Positions 17,919 to 37,949 of a stretch of 64,000 bases of DNA are shown in pieces. The translations under genes and the position numbers were made by a program. Position 1 is the first letter of the stretch. Each line of letters begins with the position of its first letter. Origin of the DNA: Promicromonospora sukumoe (GTDB taxonomy: Bacteria > Actinomycetota > Actinomycetes > Actinomycetales > Cellulomonadaceae); the NCBI RefSeq assembly GCF_014137995.1, contig NZ_JACGWV010000001.1:3410001-3474000 (forward strand). Direction: 5' to 3'. The notes under the pieces were generated by a model. The model was not told the DNA's origin. It ran no database searches and saw only the letters and a list, made by a program, of their open reading frames with translations.

Positions 17919-19729
17919 TTGCTGGTCCCCTCGTCCGGCTTGTCCACGATGGTCGTGCTGCTCTGACCCGAGTCGCCCGTACCGTTCGCGGCGCGCTGCT
18001 GGGCCTGCTTGTCCTGACCGCGGCGGTCGGCCTCGCCGTAGATGTTGTCGAGCACGCCGCGGTTGTACTCCGGGTGCTCCATCGCGACGACCTCAGGGTG
18101 GTGCAGGTCGAACGCCGGCGACTCCGAGCGGATGCGCGGGAGCGAGGAGAAGTTGTGCCGCGGCGGTGGGCAGGACGTGGCCCACTCCAGGGAGCGGCCG
18201 TAGCCCCACGGGTCGTCGACCGTCACCTTGGGCGCCTTGCGCCAGGTGATGTAGACGTTCCAGAGGAACGGCAGGGTCGACGCGGCGAGGATGAACGCGC
18301 CGATCGTGGACACCTGGTTCTCCCAGGTGAAGCCCTCCTGCGGCATGTAGTCCGCGTAACGACGCGGCATGCCCTCGACACCCAGCCAGTGCTGGATGAG
18401 GAACGTGGTGTGGAAGCCGACGAACAGCATCCAGAAGTGCACCTTGCCCAGGCGCTCCGACAGCATGCGGCCGGTCATCTTGGGCCACCAGAAGTAGAAC
18501 CCGGCGAACATCGCGAACACGACGGTGCCGAAGACCACGTAGTGGAAGTGCGCGACCACGAAGTACGAGTCGGAGAGCTGGAAGTCCAGGGCGGGGCTCG
18601 ACAGGATGATGCCGGTCAGGCCACCGAAGAGGAACGTCACCAGGAAGCCGATGGACCAGAGCATCGGCGTCTCGAACGTGAGTTTTCCTCGCCAGAGCGT
18701 GCCGATCCAGTTGAAGAACTTCACGCCTGTCGGTACCGCGATGAGCATCGTCATGAACGCGAAGAACGGCAGCAGGACGGCGCCGGTCACGTACATGTGG
18801 TGCGCCCACACCGTCACCGACAGCGCGGCGATGGCGATGGTCGCGTAGACCAGGCCCGTGTAGCCGAAGATCGGCTTGCGGCTGAACACCGGGAAGATCT
18901 CGGACACGATGCCGAAGAACGGCAGGGCGATGATGTAGACCTCGGGGTGCCCGAAGAACCAGAACAGGTGCTGCCAGAGGATGGCGCCACCGTTCTCGGG
19001 GTTGAAGATCTGCGCGTCGAGACGACGGTCGGCACCCAGCGCGAACAGCGCGGCGGCCAGCGGCGGGAAGGCCATCAGCACGAGGAGGCTGGTGACCAGC
19101 GTGTTCCAGGTGAAGATCGGCATCCGGAACATGGTCATGCCCGGCGCGCGCATCGTGATGATCGTGGTGATGAAGTTGACCGCACCGAGGATCGTGCCGA
19201 AACCGGCCAGTGCCAGGCCGAAGACCCAGAGGTCTCCACCCAACCCTGGACTGTAGGTCGTGGTCGACAGCGGCGCGTACGCGAACCAGCCGAACGACGC
19301 GGCACCCTGCGGGGTGAGGAAGCCGGCGGTGGTGATGAGGCCACCGAACAGGAACAGCCAGTAGGCGAACATGTTCAGGCGCGGGAACGCGACGTCGGGC
19401 GCGCCGATCTGGAGCGGCATGATCACGTTCGCGAAGCCCGCGAAGAGCGGGGTGGCGAACAGCAGCAGCATCACGGTGCCGTGCATCGTGAAGAGCTGGT
19501 TGTACTGCTCCTTGCTCTGCACGAGCTGGATGCCCGGCTCGAACAGCTCCGCCCGGATCAGCAGGGCCATCAGGCCGCCGATGCAGAAGAAGATGAACGA
19601 CGTGATCAGGTAGAGGTACCCGATCGTCTTGTGGTCAGTGGAGGTGATCCACTTGATGATCGTCCGGCCGAGCGTCTGGCGCCCGGGGGCCAGGCCCGGG
19701 ATCAGCTCGGTCGTGGTCGCTGCGGCCAT
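17915..19729 (-). CDS. ctaD: Cytochrome c oxidase subunit I
   Basis: 604 residues, about twelve membrane helices; the catalytic subunit with haem a, haem a3 and CuB. Visible motifs are [10 protein letters not shown] (CuB His and the cross-linked Tyr), [10 protein letters not shown] (CuB His pair) and [11 protein letters not shown] (haem a3 and a ligands). A hydrophilic C-terminal tail of about 60 residues follows. The ATG overlaps the ctaC stop (TGATG), so the ctaC-ctaD-ctaF genes are coupled. Confidence 0.97.
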
Positions 19730-20652
19730 CAGTGCCCAGCCTCCTCTTCCGTGGTTTCCGCCGGGTTGTCGACCGGGCCGGCCGTGCGGGCGAGGTCCAT
19801 GCCGAGCGAGCCGGTCTGCCCCTTCGCCGCGAGATCCGCCATGTGGGCGTCGTACTCCTCGGCGGACACGACCTTCACGTTGAAGAGCATGCCGGAGTGG
19901 AACTCACCGCAGAGCTCGGCGCACTTGCCGGCGTACGTGCCCTCGCGGGTCGGCGTCACCTGGAACGTGTTGGTCCGGTTCGGGATCATGTCCTGCTTGT
20001 ACAGGAACGCGGGGATCCAGAAGGAGTGGATGACGTCGCGCGAGTCGAGGGTGAACTCGACGGTCTCGTTGACCGGCAGGTAGAGCGTCGGGAAGGACGT
20101 CGAGGTGCCGACGGCGCCGTCGAGCTCGTCCTCGGCCGTGACGCTGCCGGGGTCCGCCTCGTGCTCGCCGTAGTCGTACACGTCGGCGTCGAGGTAGTTG
20201 AAGTCCCAGCTCCACTGCTTGCCGACGACCTGGATGTGCTCGGTCGCGGTGCCGTCGACGGTCTTGATGGCCGTCACGTCGCGGTCGGTATACCAGAACA
20301 GCACGAGCACCATGATGATCGGCACGGCCGTGTACATGAGCTCGAGCGGCAGGTGGTAGCGCGTCTGCACCGGGAGCTGGTGGTCGTCCTTGCGCTTCCG
20401 GTAGGCCGCGATGCACCACAGCATCAGGCCCCAGGTCACGATGCCCACGGCGAGGGCTGCGATCCACGAGCCCACCCACAGGTCGGTGATGCGACCGGTC
20501 TGGTTAGTCACCTCCCCGTCGCTGTAGCCGGGCAGGTATCCGCGCTGGACGGATTCGCTTGCGCAGCCAGAGGCCAGCACTGCGACGGCGACGGCTAGAG
20601 CCGACGCACGCAGGATGGCCCGCCGGGTGCGGGTAGGTGACTTCGAGTGCAA
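19729..20652 (-). CDS. ctaC: Cytochrome c oxidase subunit II, lipoprotein
   Basis: 307 residues. A lipoprotein signal ends in VLASGC (Cys about residue 28), followed by two membrane helices and a CuA cupredoxin domain: [22 protein letters not shown], and [12 protein letters not shown] with the two Cys, His and Met ligands. It accepts electrons from the bcc complex. TTG 20652 is chosen because AAAGG precedes it by six bases and it places the signal peptide at the N terminus; longer forms to 20811 would add some 50 basic residues. Confidence 0.93.
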
Positions 20653-20735
20653 GGGAGGCCTTTCACGTCTCGTCCGGCGCGTCGCACCGGTTTCCTCCCG
20701 AGCTCCACGCAGAACCTTCGTCCTCGATGGGATGC

Positions 20736-20741
20736 AGCCTA
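20736..20741 (-). promoter_or_regulatory. Candidate -10 (TAGGCT) for ctaCDF
   Basis: TAGGCT on the minus strand lies about 80 bases before the ctaC start in the 270-base gap to the divergent gene. It would leave an untranslated leader. No convincing -35 was found. Confidence 0.35.
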
Positions 20742-20922
20742 GCGCGCTCCGGGGCCTGATGATGCCCGGAACGGACCTCGCGGAACGTGACGCACTCCGC
20801 ACACGGGGCACACGTCGGCGCTGTTCAGGACACCCGCCCAGGTCGTGTCAGAACGATCGCCGCGAGGGCCCGTCACGACAGGTGCGAGGATCAGACGGAC
20901 GGCACCAGCAGCAGGAGGACGT

Positions 20923-22194
20923 GTGAGCCACGCCACCCCGGGGAACCCCGGTGAGCCCGGCAGTTCCGGCAGTCTCGGCAGGCCAGGAGGTTCCGGCAGG
21001 CCCGGAGGTTCCGGTACCCCGGAGCGGGTCTACCTCGACAACGGCGGGCGCGCCCCGTGGCACCCGCTCGCCCGGCAGGCGTTCGAGCAGGCCCTCGCCG
21101 ACGGCTGGGCGGACCCCCGCCGCCTGCACGCCGAGGGCCGGCGCGCGGCGCGGCTGCTCGACGGCGCCCGCGAGGCGGTCGCCGCCGTGCTCGGCGCACG
21201 CACGCAGGAGGTCCGGTTCACGCCCAGCCACACCGCCTCCCTCCACACGGCGGTCGCGGCGGCCGCGGCTGCCCGACGGCGCGCCGGCTCCGCCGTCGTC
21301 GTCAGCGCCGTCGAGCGGGCCGCCGTCCTGCACGCGGCGAGCCTGGCGTCGGGTGGTGCCGGAGGCGCGGGTGTCACGGAAGGTGCGGATGCCGCAGGCA
21401 GGCCCGCCGCCCCCGTGCCCGTCGACCGGCTCGGGCGGGTCGACGTGGACGCCATGGTCGCGGCAGTCGGGGCGCCCGGCGTCGCGCTGGCCGCGCTGCA
21501 GCACGCGAACGGCGAGGTGGGCACGGTCCAGCCGGTCGGTGCGGTGCACGACGCCGCCCGCGAAGCCGGCGTCCCGCTGCTGGTCGACGCCGGGGCGAGC
21601 GTGGGCCACGTCGCGGTGCCCGACACCTGGGACCTGCTGGCCGCGGACCCGGCGGACTGGGGCGGCCCGGCCGGCGTCGGCGTCCTCGCCGTCCGGCACC
21701 GGGTGCGCACGGCGCCCGTAGGACCCGAGGACGAGGACCCGTGGGCCCCCGGCGGCGTGAGCGTGCCCCTGGCGTTCGCCGCGGCGGTGGCGCTGCAGGC
21801 CGTCGAGTCCGACCGGGTGGCGCAGGAGGCACGTCGTCGGGCACTGGTGGAGCGGGTACGGGCCGAGGTGTCCCGCATCCCCGACGTCGAGGTGGTGGGC
21901 GACCCGGACGGACGCCTCCCCCACGTCGCCACGTTCTCGTTCCTCTATGTGGACGGCGAGGCGCTCGTGACGGAGCTGGACAGGCACGGGTTCGCCGTCG
22001 GGTCGGGCTCGGCGTGCACCGCGAGCACGCTGGAGCCGTCGCACGTGCTGGCCGCGATGGGCGTGCTCACGCACGGCAACGTGCGGATCGCCCTGGACCG
22101 CTCCACCACCGCCGACGAGGTCGAGCGGTTCTGCGCGGTGCTCCCGGGCGCCGTGTCGCGGGTCCGCGAGATGCTCGGCGTCGGCGGCCTGTAA
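20923..22194 (+). CDS. Cysteine-desulfurase-like protein without PLP lysine
   Basis: 423 residues. A Gly/Ser/Pro-rich N terminus (GSSGSLGRPGGSGRPGGSG) leads into the aminotransferase class V fold: RVYLDNGGRAPWHP, LQHANGEVGTVQPV, LLVDAGASVGHV, and the catalytic-cysteine loop GSGSACTASTLEPSHVLAAMG. In NifS/IscS the PLP lysine lies in SAHK-x-GGPKGVG; here the matching stretch is DPADWGGPAGVG, with Asp for Lys. The whole protein contains no lysine at all, so it cannot form the usual Schiff base. GTG 20923 follows AGGAGG. The tusA gene follows. It may carry sulfur through its cysteine, act as a partner, or be non-catalytic. Confidence 0.85.
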   Translation: MSHATPGNPGEPGSSGSLGRPGGSGRPGGSGTPERVYLDNGGRAPWHPLARQAFEQALADGWADPRRLHAEGRRAARLLDGAREAVAAVLGARTQEVRFTPSHTASLHTAVAAAAAARRRAGSAVVVSAVERAAVLHAASLASGGAGGAGVTEGADAAGRPAAPVPVDRLGRVDVDAMVAAVGAPGVALAALQHANGEVGTVQPVGAVHDAAREAGVPLLVDAGASVGHVAVPDTWDLLAADPADWGGPAGVGVLAVRHRVRTAPVGPEDEDPWAPGGVSVPLAFAAAVALQAVESDRVAQEARRRALVERVRAEVSRIPDVEVVGDPDGRLPHVATFSFLYVDGEALVTELDRHGFAVGSGSACTASTLEPSHVLAAMGVLTHGNVRIALDRSTTADEVERFCAVLPGAVSRVREMLGVGGL

Positions 22195-22220
22195 CTCTCC
22201 CCACGCACGACTCCCTTGCA

Positions 22221-22266
22221 CGTGTCAGACACACAGGTCACTAGAGTGACCTGTGTGTCTGACACG
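22221..22266. promoter_or_regulatory. Perfect palindrome overlapping the tusA promoter and start
   Basis: 21-base arms (22221-22241 and 22246-22266) surround TAGA. The loop and right arm contain TAGAGT, a fitting -10, and the tusA GTG at 22255. It shares GTGTCAGAC-N3-CAGGTC with the palindrome at 1168. It could be a terminator for the upstream gene, an operator, or an mRNA structure hiding the start. Confidence 0.6.
22242..22247 (+). promoter_or_regulatory. -10 box (TAGAGT) for tusA
   Basis: TAGAGT lies at the centre of the palindrome, seven bases before GTG 22255. Confidence 0.5.
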
Positions 22267-22569
22267 TTGGTGGACGCCCGCGGGCTGCGCTGCCCGCTGC
22301 CCGTGATCCGGCTCGCCGCGGCCGCGAAGGGCCTGCCGGCGGGCACCGAGCTGACCGTGCTGTCGACCGACCCCGCCGCCAAGCACGACGTGCCCGCCTG
22401 GTGCCGCATGCGCGGCCACGAGCACGTGGCGACCCGCGAGCACCACTCCGGGAGCCCGGGCGAGGAGGGCCGCGATGCCGGAGCCGACAACACGCCCGGC
22501 GACGAGGGCTGGGACGAAACCGCCGACGAGGGCTGGGACGGCTGGGCCGTGACCGTCCGCCTCGGCTGA
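22255..22569 (+). CDS. tusA: TusA-like sulfur carrier
   Basis: 104 residues. The first 70 are a TusA/SirA fold with the active cysteine in DARGLRCPLPVIRL and STDPAAKHDVPAWCRMRGHE. The tail is acidic with an internal repeat (DEGWDETADEGWDGW) and ends in a last strand WAVTVRLG. TusA receives persulfide from a desulfurase and hands it on, for instance to tRNA or cofactor pathways. Here its neighbour is a desulfurase homologue lacking lysine. The start is taken as GTG 22255 from the -10 spacing; GTG 22246 and an upstream TTG are alternatives. Confidence 0.85.
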   Translation: MSDTLVDARGLRCPLPVIRLAAAAKGLPAGTELTVLSTDPAAKHDVPAWCRMRGHEHVATREHHSGSPGEEGRDAGADNTPGDEGWDETADEGWDGWAVTVRLG

Positions 22570-22645
22570 CCCTCTCCTTCGAGACCTAAGTTTCTTCGCT
22601 CTGGAGCGGCTCAGAGCGAAGAAACTTAGGTCTCGAAGGAGAGGG
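22570..22645. terminator. Perfect 34-bp-arm palindrome after tusA
   Basis: Arms 22570-22603 and 22612-22645 are exact inverted repeats around an 8-base loop. It is unusually long for a terminator and contains an A/T-richer core (CCTAAGTTTCTTCG). It begins one base after the tusA stop codon. Confidence 0.75.
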
Positions 22646-22663: not shown

Positions 22664-22805
22664 GAGATCGGTCTTCTGCGTCGAGATCGGTCGATCAACC
22701 GACCGATCTCAGTGCAACCGGCCGGTCTCAGTGCATTCGACCGATCTCAGTGCGACCGACCGGTCTCAGTGCATCCGACCGGTCTCGGAGCAACGGACCG
22801 ATCTC
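22664..22805. repeat. 19-bp tandem array, unit gagatcggtc, with inverted halves
   Basis: Two units read GAGATCGGTC at 22664 and 22683. A short palindrome (22683-22710) flips the orientation, then five full 19-base units of the type AGTGCNNCCGACCGGTCTC follow at 22711, 22730, 22749, 22768 and 22787. The GACCGRTCTC core is conserved and the linker varies. The layout matches the 16-base arrays elsewhere in the window. There are no spacers, so it is not CRISPR. Confidence 0.85.
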
Positions 22806-22911: not shown

Positions 22912-23265
22912 TCAGGAGAACGACCCGCCGCAGGCGCATGCGCTGCCCGCGTTCGGGTTGTCGATCGTGAAGCCCTGCTGCTCGATGGTGTCCTTGAAGT
23001 CGATCGTGGCGCCCTCGAGGTACGGCACGCTCATCTTGTCCACGACGACCTCGACGCCGTCGTAGTCGCGCAGAGCGTCCCCGTCGAGCACCCGCTCGTC
23101 GAAGTAGAGCTGGTAGATCAGCCCGGAGCAGCCACCCGGCTGCACCGCGACGCGGAGGCGCAGGTCGTCGCGGCCCTCCTGCTCGAGCAGGCTACGGACC
23201 TTGCCCGCGGCGACGTCGGTGACGTTGACGCCGTGGGTACCGATGTCCGTGGTGGTGTCGGTCAT
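22912..23265 (-). CDS. erpA: A-type Fe-S carrier (IscA/ErpA/HesB)
   Basis: 117 residues. It has the three conserved cysteines of A-type carriers, in PGGCSGLIYQL and the ending GSACACGGSF, plus GFTIDNPNAGSAC. It hands Fe-S clusters to target enzymes; NadA, encoded nearby, is one plausible client. ATG 23265 follows GGGAGA; an upstream extension to 23397 has no support. The gap to the next gene (23266-23436) shows no reading frame with good marks. Confidence 0.95.
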   Translation of the reverse strand: MTDTTTDIGTHGVNVTDVAAGKVRSLLEQEGRDDLRLRVAVQPGGCSGLIYQLYFDERVLDGDALRDYDGVEVVVDKMSVPYLEGATIDFKDTIEQQGFTIDNPNAGSACACGGSFS

Positions 23266-23436
23266 GTCATCTCCCGATCGTGTTCGACATACCGGTAGTC
23301 GATCCTTGAACGTCCCTAACCCATCGGCTGGTCCGTCTGTTCCCGCGTGCCGGTCTGTTCTCAGATCGTACGCCCACGTACCGCGTGCGCCCATCACCGT
23401 CCGGGGTGCGGAGCGCCGCCCGCGGGGCCCGCCGGG

Positions 23437-28579: not shown

Positions 28580-28746
28580 CGAGATAGAACCCCGGCGAAG
28601 TAGAACTGTGGCGAGGTAGAACCCTGGCGGTTGCCGGGTGTTCTACCTCGCCACAGTTCTATCTCGCTGCAGTTCTACTTCGCTGCAGTTCTATCTCGCT
28701 GCAGTTCTACTTCGCTGCAGTTCTATCTCGCTGCGGTTCTACTTCG
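28580..28746. repeat. 16-bp tandem array, unit gagatagaac, inverted about a centre
   Basis: Three units read CGARRTAGAAC-N5 at 28580, 28596 and 28612. A short GC-rich centre follows (28628-28638). Seven units then read in the opposite sense, ending TTCTAYYTCG at 28650, 28666, 28682, 28698, 28714, 28730 and 28746. The 16-base period is exact. TATC and TACT variants alternate along the right side. It lies between convergent genes, so it may work as an expanded terminator. Confidence 0.9.
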
Positions 28747-37823: not shown

Positions 37824-37949
37824 AACCACAGCGAAGTAGAACCGTGGCGAGATAGAACTCTGGCGAAGCAGCAGCTGCTGCTTCGCCAGAGTTCTATCTC
37901 GCTGGAGTTCTATCTCGCTGGAGTTCTATCTCGCTGAGGTTCTACCTCG
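37816..37949. repeat. 16-bp tandem array, unit gagatagaac, with a central palindrome
   Basis: Three units (37816, 37832, 37848) read CGARRTAGAAC-N5. A perfect 22-base palindrome (37864-37885, AGCAGCAGCTGCTGCT core) is the centre. Four units then read in reverse, ending at 37901, 37917, 37933 and 37949. The first unit includes the pepA stop codon. It lies between convergent genes, as at 17437 and 28580. Confidence 0.9.

Follow-up and report, generated by a model that had tools for sequence, protein, structure and literature searches.

Background

How does a homologue of the cysteine desulfurases work, if at all, when the lysine that should bind its pyridoxal 5'-phosphate (PLP) cofactor is missing? 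This question is raised by a gene pair in a stretch of 64,000 nucleotides of Promicromonospora sukumoe (NCBI RefSeq assembly GCF_014137995.1, contig NZ_JACGWV010000001.1, positions 3,410,001 to 3,474,000 of the forward strand), here called the window:

20923..22194, + strand: lysine-less class V aminotransferase-fold protein (NifS/IscS relative), 423 amino acids, based on translation, Pfam and homologues
22255..22569, + strand: TusA-family sulfurtransferase, 104 amino acids if the GTG at 22255 is its start (likely, as read from the sequence), with the persulfide cysteine of its CPLP motif at 22291-22293

The initial annotation of this locus proposed that the pair handles sulfur by a persulfide relay instead of PLP chemistry, or that the first protein is a regulatory pseudo-enzyme. 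Our analysis of residues, synteny and selection supports what both proposals share, namely a relative of the cysteine desulfurases that is maintained without PLP; sulfur transfer through its Cys365, or a regulatory role, goes beyond that evidence. Comparison of homologues further suggests that a sulfur-handling protein working without PLP occurs in many actinobacteria. Many such proteins are annotated as cysteine desulfurase, yet the sampled ones from the order to which the window belongs lack the residue that bonds the cofactor, and models of sulfur supply that build on annotation may therefore mislead for many actinobacteria. The central loss has a precedent in IscS of Archaeoglobus fulgidus, while a search of open papers, with subscription papers and preprints outside its reach, yielded no description of the actinobacterial lysine-less form.

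Results and discussion

The active site has lost its PLP residues and kept its cysteine

Translation of 20923-22194 on the + strand gives 423 residues without a single lysine, as the initial annotation had counted, and the start site agrees with that of a homologue (P0002), which begins with the same MSHATPGNPG. The protein matches Pfam Aminotran_5 (E 1.9e-34) and has the architecture of a fold type I class V aminotransferase, with the fold intact in a structure model. Its nearest named homologues are Promicromonospora proteins annotated as cysteine desulfurase or class V aminotransferase. Against the NCBIfam NifS model TIGR03402 it scores 212.8 bits (cut-off 530.75), a threshold under which lysine-bearing relatives also remain (257.9, 271.5 and 386.6).

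The PLP loop reads DPADWGGPAGVG, compared to SAHKWGGPxGVG in canonical relatives. Residue 245, within LAADPADWGGPAGVGVLA, is an aspartate (codon 21655-21657) at the position of the Schiff-base lysine, which makes a PLP Schiff base at that place impossible. The histidine that stacks on PLP and the glutamine that contacts its phenolate oxygen are replaced by Arg132 and Ala225, respectively. Still present are the aspartate to PLP N1, the arginine of the substrate site and the catalytic-cysteine loop, which was rightly reported as intact (AVGSGSACTAS). In E. coli IscS, Asn155 is a further residue considered, and Arg354 has a role towards the substrate carboxylate. The active-site features are:

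21631..21690, + strand: former PLP-lysine loop, residues 237-256, DLLAADPADWGGPAGVGVLA, with Asp245 at the lysine position
22000..22032, + strand: catalytic-cysteine loop, residues 360-370 (GSGSACTASTL), with the Cys365 codon at 22015-22017
21316..21318, + strand: Arg132, replacing the PLP-stacking histidine (alignment)
21508..21510, + strand: Asn196, invariant across a lysine-less clade of 50 rows described below (alignment)
22084..22086, + strand: Arg388, kept, by motif the counterpart of E. coli IscS Arg354 (alignment)
21586..21588, + strand: Asp222, kept, by motif the aspartate contacting PLP N1 (alignment; PMC9978102)

The roles of His104, Asp180, Gln183, Lys206, Cys328 and Arg354 in E. 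coli IscS were taken from PMC9978102, and the columns corresponding to them were identified from motifs and from alignments with A. fulgidus IscS and one of the collected loci (L003), not with E. coli IscS itself. In that paper, the H104Q, Q183E and K206A variants are each without desulfurase activity, with R354K being active. Since the three positions at which activity is abolished are all changed in the window protein, cysteine desulfuration by it is very unlikely.

The loss is fixed in homologues and is not a matter of composition alone

Among the 120 best-listed homologues (of 7998 hits), aligned as the initial annotation had recommended, the lysine column holds aspartate and the catalytic cysteine is kept in 120/120, and 99 of the 120 proteins contain no lysine at all. 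When the window protein is included, the stacking histidine is arginine in 121/121 and the glutamine position is alanine in 119 and serine in 2, and the serine and histidine of the phosphate cup are gone as well. With aspartate fixed at this column, a sequencing error is ruled out. The 70 loci of the family and order of the window that were aligned first (L011-L080) all lack the loop lysine, and nearly all have a cysteine loop of the form V[GA][ST]GSAC, the exceptions being L067, where a contig end cuts it, and L073, where it is scrambled.

Lysine makes up 2.6% of the residues in 14 neighbouring open reading frames (ORFs) picked by hand, from which about 11 would be expected in 423 residues (Poisson P ~1.5e-5). 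The protein family at this locus is itself poor in lysine, with a median of 3 in lysine-bearing members and 0 in lysine-less ones, so that composition explains the total absence in part; it is the active-site lysine, rather than the total count, that matters. A PLP lysine elsewhere in the protein is ruled out for the window protein, which has none, and for the lysine-free majority of the best-listed homologues. Both objections named beforehand, a sequencing error and a conserved lysine at another position, thus fail.

Orthologues at the same locus differ in the lysine

For a wider comparison 239 loci were collected, giving 232 proteins after removal of L004 (the same gene as L011) and of six loci without a match; the loci taken from genomes (60 regions) are best or hand-picked matches, not a random sample. 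A gene was called syntenic when tusA lay at most 2.5 kb behind it or coxB within 3 kb, which yielded 182 loci and, after merging of five same or near-identical pairs, 177 distinct genes; a missing neighbour may reflect a short stretch of sequence. The coxB neighbour in the window is:

19729..20811, - strand: coxB/ctaC (cytochrome c oxidase subunit II), divergent neighbour, name presumed from its sequence

The place beside cytochrome oxidase genes, pointed out in the initial annotation, is conserved, with coxB divergent upstream in 160 of the 177 distinct genes, on the other side in 4 and not found in 13. A lysine-bearing gene occupies the same position between coxB and tusA in Streptomyces, Streptosporangiaceae, Micromonosporaceae, Nocardioides, Kribbella, Jiangella and others, mostly with SAHKWGGP and with the stacking histidine, and usually also the glutamine, in place. 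The lysine-less and lysine-bearing loops are colinear (LAASAHKWGGPPGVG vs LAADPADWGGPAGVG). The distinct genes divide into 89 with and 88 without the lysine, the latter having D (52), S (16), A (7), E (4), G (4), T (4) or M (1) in its place. The lysine-less genes retain the cysteine in all 87 for which there are data and Asp222 in 87/88.

The distribution of the lysine was followed on a tree with 116 rows from syntenic loci and 10 from an outgroup, from which the loop columns were removed, rows shorter than 340 amino acids dropped and rows with at least 80% identity collapsed. On this tree the lysine label needs at least 7 changes (mean after shuffling, 42), of which strongly supported branches force two; it is a quick tree with no bootstrap, 43 of 123 weak inner branches and three long rows, on which gain and loss are inseparable by count alone. 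One lysine-less clade of 50 rows (support 94, below the strongly supported class) holds all 46 sampled rows of the order of the window. Apart from it stand, for example, L110, placed within a lysine-bearing group by a strongly supported branch, and L105, which has SAHMWGGP as its loop and has kept the stacking histidine and lost the glutamine. Of the 120 best-listed hits of a search with L105, 48 have the lysine and 72 have another residue there (T 54, S 10, M 4, A 2, V 1, I 1); the cysteine is kept in 120/120, and one lysine-less hit is named Nanopelagicales; this second lysine-less group is presumably of freshwater origin. From these alignments and the tree, the lysine appears to have been lost more than once among actinobacterial orthologues. 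A replacement PLP lysine was rejected, as the 50-row clade has no invariant lysine column and 50 of the 88 distinct lysine-less syntenic genes are free of lysine.

This locus, with and without the lysine and with the cysteine and usually TusA retained, amounts to a natural experiment that separates the making of a persulfide from its carrying. A close relative of the window protein is the lysine-bearing orthologue at this locus, whose Streptomyces members are annotated as 'cysteine desulfurase/sulfurtransferase TusA family protein'. It shares locus, fold, cysteine loop and TusA partner with the window protein and differs in having kept the lysine, the histidine and usually the glutamine and, at the Streptomyces loci, in being fused to TusA.

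The lysine-less protein is under selection

Over the 30.6 substitutions per site of tree on which invariance was measured, 16 columns are invariant in the 50-row clade (W62, A87, N196, E198, Q203, D222, A288, G356, G362, C365, P372, L376, A378, G380, G385 and R388). Lost or variable there are Lys245, His132, Ser242, Gln225 and, mostly, His244 of the lysine-bearing rows, in which Gln225 itself is found in 34/51; His132 remains in 10 of the 50 rows. Within the genus, the ratio of non-synonymous to synonymous substitution rates (dN/dS) is 0.16 (median of 45 pairs, ten loci), which rules out a pseudogene. Of six segments, the former PLP loop (dN 0.009) and the cysteine region (0.010) have the lowest dN, compared to a gene median of 0.066. 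In ten lysine-bearing Streptomyces loci the cysteine region is relatively less constrained, its dN being 0.082 while the median for the gene is 0.147. The protein is not decaying, and the altered loop is itself conserved within the genus.

That the gene is nonetheless on its way to being lost is highly improbable. Such decay would fit the 15 of 121 genomes of the family without a match at 1e-40, ten of them from one genus, the at least one weak match (G003) that is the IscS paralogue or equally distant, and the second copy L073, whose cysteine loop is scrambled and whose TusA lacks CPxP; the low dN/dS, the conservation of cysteine and loop across the sampled order and the retained synteny speak against it.

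TusA as the partner and a probable role in carrying sulfur

The ORF behind the gene is a TusA, as had been claimed along with its end at 22569: it matches PF01206 with E 4.4e-19 and 68.5 bits, above the curated cut-off of 28.6, and has the CPxP cysteine that marks the family. It is the only TusA of the genome. In 156 of the 177 distinct syntenic genes tusA follows the desulfurase-like gene, and CPxP is present in 84/84 TusA neighbours of lysine-bearing genes and in 71/72 of lysine-less ones. The sole exception is the TusA of L073, a second copy in genome G268, whose lysine-less neighbour has the scrambled cysteine loop; this joint decay of both cysteine sites is a single case, but one that a joint action of the two cysteines would predict. 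The other copy in that genome (L072), for which neither coxB nor tusA was found, lies outside the 182 loci. Desulfurase and TusA are joined in one ORF at no fewer than 27 lysine-bearing loci, by motif and with three further long lysine-bearing rows unchecked, and the lysine-less L117 is likewise a fusion (481 amino acids, Aminotran_5 and TusA); the evidence for fusion is a motif for 28 ORFs and Pfam for two of them. Over the order, 113 of 297 genomes have a TusA, many of these matches lying in long ORFs that resemble other fusions, and 75 of 297 have the lysine-less protein at 1e-45.

Elsewhere in the genome of the window a SufS (TIGR01979, above cut-off) has a NifU_N protein and an ATP-binding cassette (ABC) ATPase as neighbours, and MnmA is accompanied by an IscS-like protein in which SAHK is present. 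With these separate enzymes, cluster assembly and the thiolation of transfer RNA probably have PLP enzymes of their own.

We lean towards the view that the protein is a persulfide carrier that acts with TusA, kept by selection and descended from a PLP-dependent desulfurase. The parts of this mechanism that can be read directly are the lost PLP residues, the conservation of both cysteines, and the linkage and fusion of the two genes. The ancestor would have been an ordinary PLP-dependent cysteine desulfurase paired with TusA, in which PLP catalysis was presumably lost together with the Schiff-base lysine, the stacking histidine, the glutamine and the phosphate-cup residues. Cys365, on its mobile loop, would now take up sulfane sulfur and hand it to the TusA cysteine. 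The sulfur would probably come from one of the cell's working desulfurases, the SufS or the IscS whose genes lie elsewhere, or from a small persulfide bound where the former pocket still has Asn196, Asp222 and Arg388. The E. coli IscS-TusA relay (PDB 3lvj) is alike in fold and in type of pair and differs in that its IscS depends on PLP and itself generates the persulfide, with cysteine as the source. A conceivable but less probable variant is that sulfane-sulfur transferases independent of PLP evolved more than once from cysteine desulfurases. Here Asn196, Asp222 and Arg388, on the pyridine and carboxylate side of the pocket, would hold a small persulfide such as cysteine persulfide, and the outer sulfur would pass to Cys365 and on to TusA. 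In this variant, lysine-bearing and lysine-less orthologues would represent the states before and after a switch of sulfur source.

Several observations weigh against a cofactor-free persulfide carrier of this kind. Asp222, whose counterpart in IscS is described as bonding to PLP N1 (PMC9978102), is nearly invariant, which would also suit a cofactor or a similar ligand; in the same source, E. coli IscS K206A retains some PLP. The second lysine-less group keeps the stacking histidine in 69 of its 72 hits, and L119 and L122 have a lysine one residue before the PLP position. Finally, no tusA was found behind 16 of the 88 lysine-less genes, yet these keep the cysteine (except L067, for which there are no data), so TusA cannot be the sole reason for its conservation.

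The first of these points would be accounted for by an enzyme that still holds PLP or pyridoxamine 5'-phosphate non-covalently through Asp222 and Asn196 and carries out a slow or different reaction. The slow formation of intermediates by K206A with its residual PLP (PMC9978102) and the near-complete retention of Asp222 are in line with it; the further losses of histidine, glutamine and phosphate-cup residues in the window protein and its best-listed homologues, and a residue at the lysine position that varies among D, S, A, E, G, T and M and is thereby ill-suited to act as a catalytic base, make it quite improbable.

Alternatively, the protein could be a non-catalytic regulator that responds to a small molecule bound in the former pocket, or a dead subunit paired with a working IscS or SufS. 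In either role it would steer sulfur or respiration but carry no sulfur. The invariance of Asn196, Asp222 and Arg388 despite the missing Schiff-base lysine, the divergent arrangement with coxB and the fold that is predicted to be intact would agree with such a role. The cysteine would be dispensable for it, yet is kept wherever there are data, and fusion to TusA in both lysine states points to sulfur transfer; moreover, the IscS of the genome is ~35-37% identical, a poor candidate for a heterodimer. We regard this explanation as rather unlikely.

Comparison with archaeal lysine-less IscS

The nearest precedent is A. fulgidus IscS (PDB 4eb5, 4hvk), the best sequence match in the PDB, which has a natural aspartate (Asp199) in place of the lysine and shares the IscS fold and the retained cysteine loop. 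PMC7585200 describes that the lysine-to-aspartate change abolishes desulfurase activity in A. fulgidus IscS, that its cysteine is a ligand to the [2Fe-2S] cluster on IscU, and that Methanosarcina acetivorans IscS1 is also without the PLP lysine. PLP is present in structure 4EB5 according to a figure legend in PMC9769115. By analogy the window protein could be an iron-sulfur assembly partner, with Cys365 as cluster ligand or persulfide for a scaffold or carrier, perhaps the ErpA-type protein encoded downstream:

22912..23397, - strand: ErpA-type iron-sulfur carrier, convergent neighbour (profile/family match)

An ErpA-type gene lies downstream and convergent in 128 of the 182 syntenic loci, and none was found within the fetched stretch in 50. 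The gene that adjoins the lysine-less one is tusA and not iscU, the NifU_N gene stands beside sufS elsewhere, and erpA is on the opposite strand behind a 34-nt inverted repeat. The losses are opposite too: A. fulgidus IscS has kept the histidine and has leucine for the substrate arginine, and the archaeal L237 shows that pattern with Asp, His and Val, whereas the actinobacterial clade is mostly without the histidine and has kept the arginine (Arg132 and Arg388 in the window). The partner of the archaeal protein is IscU and its role that of a cluster ligand; the window protein is bacterial, accompanied by TusA and of a type in which the lysine was apparently lost more than once. We therefore treat a role in iron-sulfur chemistry by way of the neighbouring ErpA and NadA only as a rival, and an unlikely one. 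Judged by its residues and partner, the actinobacterial form seems to stand beside the archaeal one as a second type of desulfurase relative without the lysine.

Gene order and repeats around the pair

On one side of the pair coxA lies beyond the divergent coxB, and behind tusA follow the convergent ErpA-type gene and then nadA; names such as cox, nadA and SufC are presumed, in part from position, unless a family match is cited. In four loci of one genus, g14 (L024, L025, L029 and L030), the pair is intact but the cox genes and erpA lie on its opposite side or on the other strand, so that the pair and the cox linkage are separable.

The two genes of the pair are separated by a repeat:

22220..22267, strand not assigned: dispersed perfect palindrome with 23-nt arms, between both genes and overlapping the probable tusA start

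A search of the genome with the arm gave 270 matches at no more than 3 mismatches, against 0 for a reversed control, and in relatives both arms (L012) or one arm (L013) are found at the same place. It looks like a dispersed element of the REP (repetitive extragenic palindrome) kind that belongs to the genome of the window and near relatives, outside the conserved locus, and a regulatory site of the locus is unlikely since the repeat is dispersed.

The stretch between tusA and erpA, which converge, contains an inverted repeat at 22570-22645, with 34-nt arms that match perfectly and an 8-nt loop; a similar one (97%) is present in L012. A tandem array of a 19-bp unit (CAACCGACCGATCTCAGTG, 5.8 copies) follows between the inverted repeat and erpA at 22696-22805. 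Two further tandem arrays with 16-bp units similar to each other are located at 28640-28746 and 37889-37949 (GTTCTACCTCGCTGCA; GAGTTCTATCTCGCTG). Within the lysine-less protein itself, the N-terminal ~30 residues (20923-21021) form a glycine-rich, collagen-like run (GNPGEPGSSG...) of low model confidence, which is short or missing in most of 22 aligned rows.
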